Origin: a virus
Length of the DNA stretch: 20,077 nt
Direction: 5' to 3' (one strand)
IMG/VR virus record: IMGVR_UViG_3300039188_000001
Span: 1 to 20,077 of that record
The first letter of the stretch is position 1. The number at the start of each line of letters is the position of its first letter. The notes under the pieces are model-generated. The model was not told the DNA's origin. It did not search any database and saw only the letters and a list, made by a program, of their open reading frames with translations. This document shows, one piece after another, positions 1,757-7,218 of the stretch. Position numbers and translations under genes: made by a program.

Positions 1757-3235
1757 ATGTTCTGGAACCGAAAGAAGACCGAGCCGGCACCGAAGACCAA
1801 AGCGCCCGCCGATATCTACAGCATGATGAATGGGATGGGCGCGGACTCTGCGGACATGCTGCGGATGTACATTGACGAGAATGCCGTACCGATGGAAGCC
1901 CCGCACGTTGAAGGGCACGCCATGGACAGCGCGGACTCCGTGCATTCATCATCGATTAATTACGGCACTGTAAACCCCGTCATCTTCGCGCACTACGTTT
2001 CCACTGGGCAGTTCATCGGCTACCCTGCCATGGCCGTCATGGCTCAACACTGGTTGATCCGCAAGGGCTGTGAGTCCAAGCCCCGAGATGCTGTGCGCAA
2101 GTGGTATGACATAGCGGCTGACGGCGGTGAGCTTACGCCCGGCCAGATTAAGGCGATTGAAAAGCTGGATCGAAAGTTCAGCCTGAAAAACAACATTATT
2201 GAAGGCGTCACGCTTAACAACATTTTCGGCATCCGGCACATCCTGTTTAAGCACACCAACCCGGACTTTGATTATTCCAGACCATTCAACCCCGACGAGT
2301 TCCGAAATGGCGGCTATGCCGGAATTTCGCAGATAGACCCGCTTCGGTTAACGCCCGAGCTGAAAAACGACGACATCATGGACCCGATCTCCATCACGTA
2401 CATGGAGCCTACCTGGTGGCTGGTTAATGGTAAGAGGATTCACAAGAGCCATATGGTAGTGCTGACCGGCGACATGGTGCCGGACCTGCTAAAGCCTACC
2501 TATCGCTACGGCGGCGTGAGCATGGTGCAGAAAGCATTCGAGCGCGTGTACGCAGCCGAGCGCACTGCGAATGAGGCGCCACAGCTTGCGATGACCAAGA
2601 GACTGGTCTGGAGAAAGGCGGATCTCGACCAAATGGCCGCCAAGCCCGAGAAGTTCGGCCGCGCTATGCAGAAGTTGGTGGAGTTTCGGAATAACTACGG
2701 CGTTCAGTTGCTGGGCAAGGAAGAGGAAATGGGTCAGCTAGACACGTCCCTAACAGACCTTGACGCCGTGATCATGGGACAGTATCAGCTTGTATGCTCA
2801 ATCTTTGCAGAGCCTGCCAGCAAGCTTATGGGCACGGGCAGCCAGGGGTTTAGCACCGGTGACGCGGATATCGATTACCGGATAGAGTCTCTTGAAGAGC
2901 TTCAGGCTAACGAGATGACTGATATTGTAGATGCCCATTATCGCCGGCTGATACCTTCTTATGCGGCTGACCTGCAGATGAAGCCGGACGCCAGCATTTA
3001 TCCTGAGTGGTTGCCACTCCGTGTAATGAGTGACGGGGACGTGGCTGACATCAATCTTAAGAACCGCCAAGCTGATCAGCTGTTGTTCCAGATGCAAGCC
3101 ATAGACAACTTTGAAGTCCGCCAGCGTTTGATTGATGACCCGAACAGCGGATTTAATGCGCTTGAGATGCCCGCCGAAGAAGAGGATGACGATGGCGAAG
3201 AAACGGGAAGTGAAGCTAACGCGCCAGAAGTATGA
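1757..3235 (+). CDS. Portal protein (HI1409/DUF1073 family)
   Basis: This 492-residue protein would form the dodecameric ring through which DNA enters and leaves the head and to which the neck attaches. The central region (NNIFGIRHILFKHTNPDFDY) and the later motif PASKLMGTGSQGFSTG (about residues 353-368) are characteristic of the DUF1073/HI1409 phage portal family. The C-terminus is an acidic tail (EEEDDDGEE), often seen in portals. The ATG at 1757 follows an AGAGG-type SD sequence. The start of the Mu gpF-like gene is embedded in its last 44 bases, as in many phages where portal and MuF proteins are made together. Some DUF1073-related proteins carry or adjoin the anti-CBASS Acb1 phosphodiesterase; no such 2H-phosphoesterase domain is visible here. 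Confidence 0.93.
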   Translation: MFWNRKKTEPAPKTKAPADIYSMMNGMGADSADMLRMYIDENAVPMEAPHVEGHAMDSADSVHSSSINYGTVNPVIFAHYVSTGQFIGYPAMAVMAQHWLIRKGCESKPRDAVRKWYDIAADGGELTPGQIKAIEKLDRKFSLKNNIIEGVTLNNIFGIRHILFKHTNPDFDYSRPFNPDEFRNGGYAGISQIDPLRLTPELKNDDIMDPISITYMEPTWWLVNGKRIHKSHMVVLTGDMVPDLLKPTYRYGGVSMVQKAFERVYAAERTANEAPQLAMTKRLVWRKADLDQMAAKPEKFGRAMQKLVEFRNNYGVQLLGKEEEMGQLDTSLTDLDAVIMGQYQLVCSIFAEPASKLMGTGSQGFSTGDADIDYRIESLEELQANEMTDIVDAHYRRLIPSYAADLQMKPDASIYPEWLPLRVMSDGDVADINLKNRQADQLLFQMQAIDNFEVRQRLIDDPNSGFNALEMPAEEEDDDGEETGSEANAPEV

Positions 3236-4088
3236 CTGGGCCAAAAACCGGGACACGAACTTGGTAGGCGAGCCCTTACGCGTTAACGAGATTTATGCAA
3301 ACCGCAAGGCCGAGGTCGCTATGCGCGAGGTGCGCCGTATGCACCTGGACGTTAGCAAACAGGTGAAGGCTCTGTTTCACACACCTTTAGCTAAAGAGAC
3401 TATTCAAGATGTGGCCATGGACGCATCTATCACCAGCCAAGCTCGCATCCTTACAAACCGCCTAATGCGCGAGTGGGGCCAGAAATTTAACCTGTTTGCG
3501 AAAGAGTTTAGCGACAGTTTGTTCGATGAAATATCAGGCCAGACCGGCGAGGACATGCGGCGCTCAATGGAGAAGATGACCGGCAGCGCAACCATCAACT
3601 CTACGTCAATCACCAGCGCGACAAAGGACGTTATTGCCGCCGGCACTCAGCAGTCCACCAGCTTGATCAAGTCAATAAGCGGCGAGTACATGGGAGAAGT
3701 ACAAGAGGCATTGATGCGGTCCATAGCGTCGCCAAAGGGCAACTTCACGGACACCATGAAAGCCATTGATGAGATGCTGCAAGGCCGGTTTAAGCGCTAC
3801 AAGAACAAGGCCAAGAATGTCACTCTTGATCAGACGCGGAAAGCTTACAGCACAATCACTGACAGCCGCATGAGATCGGTTGGCATAGCACAATACACTT
3901 GGCGGCACGCTGGCGGGTCACAGGAGCCGAGGCAGTATCACAAGAATGTGCTTAATGGGCAGGTATTCGACCTTGATGACCCCCCTATAATTGACCAGTC
4001 AACCGGTGAGCGGGGGCAGCCAGGTACGGCCATAAATTGTAAATGCTTCAAAGTTCCATTGGTCACTTTTGGAAACCCGAATAAATAA
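3192..4088 (+). CDS. Phage Mu gpF-like head morphogenesis protein
   Basis: The protein has 298 residues from ATG 3192. Earlier in-frame starts exist, but AGAGG at 3181-3185 is correctly spaced only for 3192. The C-terminal third carries the Mu F-like domain: TLDQTRKAYSTITDSRMRS (about 211-229), a histidine-containing segment (WRHAGG, 238-242; QYHKNVLNG, about 249-256), and the closing PGTAINCKCF motif (about 278-286), whose CxC is typical of the family. The N-terminal two thirds are mostly charged and helical. These minor head proteins associate with the portal during procapsid assembly, and some are ejected with DNA. It overlaps the portal gene by 44 bases. The family is clear; the exact role in this phage is inferred. 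Confidence 0.92.
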   Translation: MAKKREVKLTRQKYDWAKNRDTNLVGEPLRVNEIYANRKAEVAMREVRRMHLDVSKQVKALFHTPLAKETIQDVAMDASITSQARILTNRLMREWGQKFNLFAKEFSDSLFDEISGQTGEDMRRSMEKMTGSATINSTSITSATKDVIAAGTQQSTSLIKSISGEYMGEVQEALMRSIASPKGNFTDTMKAIDEMLQGRFKRYKNKAKNVTLDQTRKAYSTITDSRMRSVGIAQYTWRHAGGSQEPRQYHKNVLNGQVFDLDDPPIIDQSTGERGQPGTAINCKCFKVPLVTFGNPNK

Positions 4089-4097
4089 GCGTATTAT
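4069..4097 (+). promoter_or_regulatory. Predicted sigma70-like promoter for the Acb2-like gene
   Basis: TTGGAA at 4069-4074 (4 of 6 to TTGACA) and TATTAT at 4092-4097 (5 of 6 to TATAAT) are separated by exactly 17 bases, and the 3' half lies in the short gap after the MuF stop. This is the best-formed promoter seen in the window and would place transcription start near 4104, ahead of the GGAGG at 4116-4120. Confidence 0.5.
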
Positions 4098-4124
4098 TAT
4101 CACATCATTACTGTTGGAGGCATC

Positions 4125-4349
4125 ATGGATAACCAGCATAGAAAAATTAAAGGCTACCGAGATCTCAGTCAGACCGAGATTGATGACATGAATCAGATTA
4201 AAGAAAAGGCGGCCGAAGTTGGCGATCTGATCGCGGCGCTGGAAGAGAGCCCTGAAATTGATAAACGCTGGCTGGCGATTGCCAAAACCGATTTACAAAA
4301 AGGGTTTATGGCCCTGATTAGATCAATTGCTAAGCCAGGCTTCTTTTGA
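4125..4349 (+). CDS. acb2: Acb2-like cyclic-oligonucleotide sponge (anti-CBASS)
   Basis: This 74-residue soluble, charged, helical protein has no signal peptide or membrane segment. Its N-terminal block ([19 protein letters not shown], residues 8-26) and C-terminal block ([20 protein letters not shown], about 48-67, then a PxFF ending) match the pattern of the Acb2/Vs.4 family, small phage proteins that form hexamers and sequester cyclic di- and trinucleotides made by CBASS cyclases. From memory, Tyr11 and Lys26 are key nucleotide-binding residues in the Pseudomonas phage PaMx33 protein; Tyr and Lys occupy exactly positions 11 and 26 here. It has a strong GGAGG SD sequence, its own predicted promoter, and its stop overlaps the next ATG (TGATG). 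Neighbours are all virion genes, so it looks like an accessory gene inserted in the head module. The family call is from remembered sequence pattern, not a search; activity is inferred. Confidence 0.8.
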
Positions 4350-5512
4350 TGCCGAAATACATTGAAGATCAAAACGGGTACGTTACGTTCCCCGACACGC
4401 CACTAAGCAAACCGGGCGTGTTCCCGTACCTTGGCCGAGAGATAGGGCCAGAGCTTGAGCCTGACCGCATCTATAACGTGTATCGGCCTGAGTCTGAGCT
4501 GAACAGTGCCGAGACTATTGAATCGTTTAAGCTATCCCCCTGGTTCCCGCGCCACGAGATGGCAGGCGACGAGTTCACATCTGCCGAAGAGATCGGCGTA
4601 CAGGGAACCACAGGACAGGACGTTCGGTATATTGACGGCCTGGGCTTGGTCGCCACAGTAAAGACATTCGGCACTCGATTAAAAGCGGCGATCCGCTCAG
4701 GTATGCGCGAGCTATCATGCGGGTTTCGGTGCAGCTGGGACGTTGTTAGCGGTACAACCCCGGATGGTGTAAAATACGATGTGATTCAGCGAAACATTCG
4801 CGGCAACCACCTTGCGAGCGTTGAAGAAGGCAGAATGGGGGCCGGCGTTTCGGTCGCGATGGACAGGGCGTGTATTGCGCTCGACAAACTTAACGATGGT
4901 GAAACTATGGAACTCGACGAAATGCTGGCGAAAGTACGCGACGCTGAACCTGCCAAGGAAGAGCTGCGCAAACTTTTTGACGAAATCAAGGCCATGCTTG
5001 GCGATCATGTTGATGACATGGTAGAAAATGAGCCGGGCGAAGACAGCTACGATGAAGACATGGACGCAAACGCCATGGACATGGATGACGACAAGGCCAT
5101 GGATATGGACAAAGACGATGCAGCCATGGACGAAGACGACGACAAGCCCAAGGCCGCTATGGATGCAATGGCCAAGACCATCAAGCGGCTAGAGGTGCAG
5201 ATCAAAACTCTGTCCGGAAAGGCGCTTGACGCGGCTACCATTGAGCGCCACATCAACGACAAGAACAGCCTGCTTAAAGACCTTGAGCCGGTTGTTGGCA
5301 AGATCGACGGCACCGGCTTAGACGCTGCCGGCGTTGCTAAGAAAGCGGCCGCAGTGCTGGGCATTGCTTGCGACTCCGGTTCAGCACTGGCGTCCGTGCG
5401 CGGTTACCTGCACGCACACAGCAAGCCGGCCAGCACGATCGACCGAGGCACGGCACAAGACTCCGCAGCATCAATTGCTGTACTAAAAACACTTGACGAG
5501 GCGGGGCTTTAA
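4349..5512 (+). CDS. DUF2213 prohead protease fused to acidic scaffold-like region
   Basis: The protein has 387 residues from ATG 4349, whose A is the last base of the upstream stop (an in-frame TTG at 4346 is less likely). The N-terminal ~175 residues have the DUF2213 signature: YRPESEL, SPWFPRHE, MRELSCGFRCSWD, IQRNIRGNHLASVEEGRMG. His69, Ser123 and His154 sit where a His-Ser-His triad would be expected for herpesvirus/S78-like prohead proteases; assigning them as catalytic is inference. From about 187 the chain becomes helical and charged, with a D/M-rich tract (about 232-268) and a probable coiled segment (KTIKRLEVQIKTLSGKALDAA), typical of capsid scaffolds. The likely role is to guide procapsid assembly and then process itself and head proteins. 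The cement and capsid genes follow directly. Confidence 0.88.
   Translation: MPKYIEDQNGYVTFPDTPLSKPGVFPYLGREIGPELEPDRIYNVYRPESELNSAETIESFKLSPWFPRHEMAGDEFTSAEEIGVQGTTGQDVRYIDGLGLVATVKTFGTRLKAAIRSGMRELSCGFRCSWDVVSGTTPDGVKYDVIQRNIRGNHLASVEEGRMGAGVSVAMDRACIALDKLNDGETMELDEMLAKVRDAEPAKEELRKLFDEIKAMLGDHVDDMVENEPGEDSYDEDMDANAMDMDDDKAMDMDKDDAAMDEDDDKPKAAMDAMAKTIKRLEVQIKTLSGKALDAATIERHINDKNSLLKDLEPVVGKIDGTGLDAAGVAKKAAAVLGIACDSGSALASVRGYLHAHSKPASTIDRGTAQDSAASIAVLKTLDEAGL
4907..4909 (+). promoter_or_regulatory. Possible internal translation start for a separate scaffold product
   Basis: An in-frame ATG at codon 187 of the DUF2213 gene is preceded by GGTGA at 4898-4902. It lies exactly at the boundary between the protease-like domain and the helical acidic C-terminal region. 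Nested protease/scaffold genes sharing a C-terminus are well known in phages (lambda C/Nu3). The site is seen; its use is inferred. Confidence 0.3.
5060..5152 (+). repeat. Degenerate Met-Asp-rich coding repeat
   Basis: Within the DUF2213 C-terminal region the motif A-M-D-x-D-D-D-K recurs (AMDMDDDKAMDMDKDD, then AMDEDDDK), with GCCATGGA repeated at the DNA level. This gives a very acidic, probably disordered linker and is a site prone to length change by slippage. Confidence 0.7.
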
Positions 5513-6041: not shown

Positions 6042-7169
6042 ATGAGCAAGATTCACCACGTAACTAAAATTCGCGCTTCCGGCAAAATGGGCGGCGTCGC
6101 GTTTGACGGCGATCAGATCAAGGCGTTGGCAGGCAGTCAAGTGGCCATGCGCCGCTTGGGCATCGGCATGGACGCGGGATTTGCCCGTAACGCCCTGTCT
6201 GTTGCGATGGATGCCGGGCTGACTCAGCCGGTGACCACTGCGAGCGGCGGCGTCCCGGTCCAGTTCCTGCAAAACTTCCTTCAGGGCGTTGTCCACATCC
6301 TGACCACAGCTCGACGCGGTGACGTGTTGGCTCAGGTCATGACCGTTGGCGATTGGTCTGACGAAGAGATTGTCCTGACCATCCTTGAGCACTTGGGCCA
6401 GCCTGAGCTGTACAAGGACCACGGCGACATCCCAATCGCGGCGTGGAATGCCACGTACGAGCGCCGGACCATCGTGCGCTTTGAGCTTGGCGCAGAGATG
6501 ACCAAGTTGGACGAAGACCGCAGCGCAAAAGCGGGCCTTAGTTCCATGGACGAAAAGCGGGCAGCGGTTGCGCTGGCGTTTGAGATCCTGCGAAATGAAA
6601 TTTTCTTCTACGGCTTCAATAACGGCGTGAACCGTACCTTTGGCTTCCTGAACGATCCCAACCTGCCGGCCTTCGTGACCCTGGCGAACGGCGCCAGTGG
6701 TGACACAACATGGGCAAGCAAGACCGCTGCCGAGCGTATTGCTGACATCGTGACCGCGGTGTCAACCCTGCGCACCCAGTCGGGCAGCCAGGTAGACCCC
6801 GAGGCCATGCAGCTGAAGTTCGCTATTGCCGCGAGTGTGAAAGACCTGATGAACGAGTCAGACTCTTCATTCACTAACGGCATGACCGTCAACGAGTGGC
6901 TGAGCAAGAACTACCCAAATATCACTGTTGAAGCCATACCGGAATTCGACGGTGCTGACGGTGGTGAAAACGTTTACTACCTCTATCCTGAAACCGTAGA
7001 CGGCAGCGGGACGGACGGCGGTGAGACTGTGATCCAAGCTGTGCCAAGCAAGATGACTGCACTGAATACCGTGCAGACTATGCGCGGCGTCAGTGAGGGC
7101 TACACCAGCGCAACAGCAGGCTGTTTTGTGAAGCGCGGATATGCTGTGTACCGTGCAAGCGGGGCGTAA
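6042..7169 (+). CDS. Major capsid protein (DUF2184 family)
   Basis: This 375-residue protein has the DUF2184 pattern: a central GDWSDEEIVLTILEHLGQPELY, then WNATYERRTIVRFELGAEMT and LRNEIFFYGFNNGVNRTFGFLNDPNLP. The family adopts the HK97 fold and forms the icosahedral shell. A strong AAAGGAG SD sequence at 6025-6031 fits high expression. The C-terminus (CFVKRGYAVYRASGA) is typical for the family. An N-terminal ~45-residue charged segment (HHVTKIRASGKMGGVAF) may be a delta-like region removed or ordered during maturation, but no processing site is evident. It is followed by a stable hairpin at 7178-7197. Confidence 0.93.
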   Translation: MSKIHHVTKIRASGKMGGVAFDGDQIKALAGSQVAMRRLGIGMDAGFARNALSVAMDAGLTQPVTTASGGVPVQFLQNFLQGVVHILTTARRGDVLAQVMTVGDWSDEEIVLTILEHLGQPELYKDHGDIPIAAWNATYERRTIVRFELGAEMTKLDEDRSAKAGLSSMDEKRAAVALAFEILRNEIFFYGFNNGVNRTFGFLNDPNLPAFVTLANGASGDTTWASKTAAERIADIVTAVSTLRTQSGSQVDPEAMQLKFAIAASVKDLMNESDSSFTNGMTVNEWLSKNYPNITVEAIPEFDGADGGENVYYLYPETVDGSGTDGGETVIQAVPSKMTALNTVQTMRGVSEGYTSATAGCFVKRGYAVYRASGA

Positions 7170-7197: not shown

Positions 7198-7218
7198 ACT
7201 CTTTCAAAGGTGCAAGCA

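Follow-up and report, generated by a model that had tools for sequence, protein, structure and literature searches.

The best-described relatives of the protein considered here are the Acb2 sponges of the Pseudomonas phages PaMx33/PaMx43 and PaP2 (PDB 8h2j, 8ixz), in which a short N-terminal helix accompanies two long antiparallel helices and two protomers contribute their N- and C-terminal parts to the dinucleotide pocket (PMC10419184), and Vs.4 of phage T4 (7uq2), where mutation of Tyr8 disrupts cyclic dinucleotide binding and Phe82 stacks on the ligand (PMC12657218). The 74-residue product of acb2 in the window, i.e., the whole viral fragment that was analysed (20,077 bases), belongs to the same family as the former, with about 56% identity over the structurally aligned residues. 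It has the same N-terminal stretch, Tyr11, Lys26, RWLAI and C-terminal Phe as the PaMx33-type proteins, whereas the segment joining its two long helices is 19 residues shorter; moreover, its gene lies among head genes, while acb2 of PaMx43 is located beside replication/nucleotide genes. With Vs.4 it shares the predicted fold and the pocket tyrosine, Tyr11 aligning with T4 Tyr8 in the profile alignment, but the identity is about 28% and the position of T4 Phe82 is occupied by Ala69, an alanine being found also in PaMx33-type Acb2. In the Beetrevirus phages JBD67 and PM105, acb2 likewise belongs to the head operon, where its slot is a different one and follows the gene for the major head protein; the product is 40% identical and longer (about 108 codons). 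Lastly, the helical hairpin (PF24729) is in common with the hairpin domain of Tad1; however, Tad1 has an N-terminal beta-sheet domain that is missing from the window protein, which is 74 residues long and all-helical, and identity as a Tad1 can be ruled out.

The features of the locus are the following:

1757-3235, forward strand: portal protein (Phage_portal_3).
3192-4088, forward strand: MuF-like minor head protein, 5' neighbour of acb2 (PF04233, E 8.7e-8).
4089-4124, forward strand: leader of acb2, 36 bp with the Shine-Dalgarno sequence GGAGG (..GTTGGAGGCATC-ATG).
4125-4349, forward strand: acb2, encoding a 74-residue protein of the Acb2 family of cyclic-oligonucleotide sponges (stop codon included).
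4347-4351, forward strand: TGATG overlap, where the acb2 stop codon (TGA) and the start codon of the DUF2213 gene (ATG) have one base in common.
4349-5512, forward strand: DUF2213 gene (PF09979, E 4.5e-37), with a predicted assemblin-like protease domain and an acidic, scaffold-like C-terminal part.
6042-7169, forward strand: major capsid protein (PF09950).

The relative order of the neighbours is thus portal, MuF, acb2, DUF2213, a cement-like protein and the capsid protein. The preliminary description had placed acb2 between the MuF and prohead-protease genes of an otherwise structural operon; both flanks are confirmed by Pfam, the protease being a predicted one.

The assignment to Acb2, also advanced in that description, is borne out by both sequence and predicted structure. 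Membership being assigned on a match to the whole hairpin, the acb2 product matches the Pfam profile Acb2_Tad1_hairpin (PF24729) over positions 1-58 of 58 with 74.4 bits (E 8.3e-21), well above the curated cut-off of 27 bits. In the PDB, Acb2 (p26; 8h2j, 8ixz) was retrieved at about E 1e-18 in a single-sequence search and at about E 3e-30 in a profile search, and T4 Vs.4 was matched at E 5e-9 by the family profile (62 relatives in the profile). The AlphaFold2 model of the single chain (pLDDT 89.5; helices 4-7, 16-40 and 47-69) is a helical hairpin, with two long antiparallel helices and a short N-terminal one, the same arrangement described for Acb2. The best nine Foldseek matches of this model are all Acb2/Vs.4 (TMq 0.65-0.76); after the ninth, E jumps from 0.025 to 2.1, with no other strong fold match. 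VIA gave Z 8.8 to 8h2j, with a second value of Z 8.4. A helical hairpin is by itself weak evidence, yet sequence and modelled fold agree in identifying the ORF as one that encodes a true Acb2-family protein.

The ORF extends from an ATG to a TGA codon and contains the motifs originally reported for it, with tyrosine in position 11 and lysine in position 26; GGAGG lies a few bases 5' of the ATG. Because of this Shine-Dalgarno sequence, of the Pfam match, of the 237 phage records with a tblastn match at E<=1e-3 and of the strong purifying selection discussed below, acb2 is not a chance ORF. The existence of a promoter of its own is unsupported, a promoter-like site at 4069-4097 being near chance (2 found vs 0.9 expected). 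A near-identity search of phage records disclosed no close genome to the window.

Gly10, Tyr11, Asn23, Arg66 and Pro71 are invariant over 61 Acb2 relatives, and 60 of them share Lys26, Arg48, Gly60, Met62 and Phe74; all these family-conserved residues are present in the window protein. Lys26, like Tyr11, is counted among the residues of the cyclic dinucleotide pocket. The proposal that Tyr11 is a binding residue fits both its alignment to T4 Tyr8 (PMC12657218) and its invariance (61/61). In the comparison with the nearest Acb2, that of contig L002 (positions 5001-5222, 89% identical), pS is 0.68 and pN 0.077, and the resulting dN/dS of about 0.05 points to strong purifying selection on the window protein. 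This bears on the idea that the protein no longer binds nucleotides, or has a different ligand, and is kept by drift after transfer. Some phages do lose Acb2, as in PaMx41, whose acb2 has a premature stop, and in T2, with a probable pocket mutation (PMC12657218), but such a low dN/dS and the presence of every family-conserved residue make the same fate very unlikely here.

A second proposal concerned length, the protein having been regarded as unusually short in the loop between the helices and, for this reason, possibly different in ligand range. The first part holds against PaMx33 Acb2 (93 aa) and Vs.4 (about 88 aa), the longer forms having additional residues between the two helices, but not against the family, since 74 aa is the modal length, found in 47 of the 85 ORFs measured (window included) in a survey whose patterns were taken from the query and which is therefore biased to similar forms; longer forms are also present among phage records. 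Being 74 aa the commonest form, and every family-conserved residue being kept, no altered ligand range follows, and this part of the proposal was rejected. Moreover, with a dinucleotide pocket built from the terminal parts of the protomers, a short tip loop would be no reason for a changed dinucleotide range.

Viral contigs, phage records and one genome scan supplied the MuF, DUF2213, portal and capsid relatives with which the locus was compared. The exact slot of acb2 is new: in 0 of the 98 non-redundant loci having MuF then DUF2213 is acb2 located between them. The gap between the two genes is not longer than 120 bp in 44 of these loci and exceeds 250 bp in 38; among the 18 closest relatives it is 8 to 130 bp in ten and 0.7-2.4 kb in eight, the ORFs in all eight large gaps being on the reverse strand. 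The closest relative, contig L088 (MuF 94%, capsid 94% identical), has a 42-bp gap without acb2, in which the first part of the window leader (AATAAGCGTAT.ATTA) is also found, and the junction of a contig from a Methylophaga MAG (L113; capsid 86%) is likewise without acb2. Since both sites are empty and the G+C content over acb2 is lower (0.44 vs 0.51-0.58 around), the sequence comparison indicates that acb2 was gained recently in the lineage of the window, at an insertion-prone MuF-protease junction where relatives have other accessory genes or none. No other gene of L002, which carries the nearest Acb2, matches the window; genes for replication initiation and for an alpha/beta-hydrolase lie a few kb or less from its acb2.

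The comparison of empty with filled sites shows that the MuF-protease junction, although part of an essential operon, receives accessory genes as cargo. Among the cargo found there in relatives are methyltransferases (D12-class and MT-A70), a protein with a PAPS-reductase domain and unknowns, and the junction is a possible place to find unknown counter-defence genes. Reverse-strand cargo inside the forward head operon can be seen at this junction in L084, L091, L106, L108, L111, L114, L118 and L201. Two distant relatives (L238, 2976-4481; L239, 787-2283) have instead a forward ORF of about 500 aa between MuF and DUF2213, and a family tally over the inserts gave TPR repeats and DNA methylases, two members each, tallied jointly.

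The same comparison leaves hardly any credibility to the idea that the Acb2 fold has been co-opted as a head-assembly part, e.g., one that helps MuF or the protease as a chaperone or scaffold factor: acb2 does sit between these genes and overlaps the protease start, but all 98 relatives surveyed keep the MuF-DUF2213 order without it, one of them at 94% identity, the nearest Acb2 sequences are in unrelated genomes and gene contexts, and the ligand-pocket residues are retained.

As for the downstream gene, DUF2213 is uncharacterised in Pfam. The first 200 residues of its product were modelled by AlphaFold2 with a pLDDT of 81, and VIA aligned the model to T4 gp21, a capsid assembly protease (Z 9.2), to the VZV protease (8.1) and then to other herpesvirus proteases. 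In 42 relatives there is no change at His69, Ser123 or His154, three residues compatible with a His-Ser-His pattern. Foldseek alone gave no significant match for this model, so that the reading rests on the second aligner and on the residue pattern; on this basis, the N-terminal domain looks like an assemblin-type prohead protease.

Taken jointly, the explanation that is considered very probable is that of a true Acb2, acting as a hexameric nucleotide sponge, recently gained, expressed late and with the protease probably coupled to it. Family membership, modelled fold, conservation, location and the empty sites of relatives are shown by the data, whereas oligomer, ligands, CBASS suppression, late timing and coupling are inferred. 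On the basis of homology, the protein would most likely assemble as a homohexamer able to bind the cyclic di- and tri-nucleotides produced by CBASS (and similar) cyclases, the trinucleotides in separate pockets at the trimer interface as in other Acb2 proteins; these ligands would be held uncleaved, and the effectors would stay off. The gene would be expressed as part of the late structural operon, with a strong ribosome-binding site of its own, and the TGATG overlap suggests that the predicted protease is probably translated by coupling to acb2. A search for a CD-NTase (SMODS) in two MAGs with phage relatives gave no match, though these MAGs might lack part of their genomes and some CD-NTases fall outside SMODS.

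It is also conceivable that the two genes are functionally paired. According to PMC12409349, which cites Richmond-Buccola 2024, the prohead protease of another phage, Bas13, triggers a CBASS sensor; a sponge made immediately before the phage's own protease, and coupled to it, would let trigger and antidote rise in a fixed ratio. Such a pairing appears rather unlikely, and chance placement is the simpler reading because other cargo occupies the same junction in relatives; still, the timing of sponge production with capsid maturation is a testable idea.

The sponge of the window is an ordinary but well-supported family member in a new slot, added to a phage group with relatives in Vibrio, Shewanella and a Methylophaga MAG. 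Head operons with an acb2 gene have precedents in JBD67 and PM105, as stated above, and in RcapMu, where it follows the capsid gene; in the Leptolyngbya phage Lsp-JY19 it lies near the capsid gene, and in contigs L006 and L012 it is 5' of an S49-peptidase gene, the L006 copy coming immediately after a portal gene. Other copies are beside replication genes or tRNA clusters, and the closest Acb2 sequences belong to unrelated genomes, with contexts including ParB, RdgC, tRNA clusters and portal/terminase. The gene moves freely between contexts.

Only two other members found in this phage group have acb2, both in a different slot. In Shewanella phage 1/41 and contig L111, the gene is in the same module, flanked by the counterparts of the window ORFs at 7210 and 7591, a slot that harbors a different gene in another relative. 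The idea that acb2 is a shared ancestral gene of the group is unsupported, these copies being 51-55% identical and in the other slot; in a tree they fall across the deepest split from the window copy, with weak support. This second variable slot (L084, 12729-12980; L111, 7965-8189; L108, 7808-8041; L083, 11563-11838) has contents that vary by relative, namely acb2, a 77-aa unknown or a gp49/gp66-family gene.
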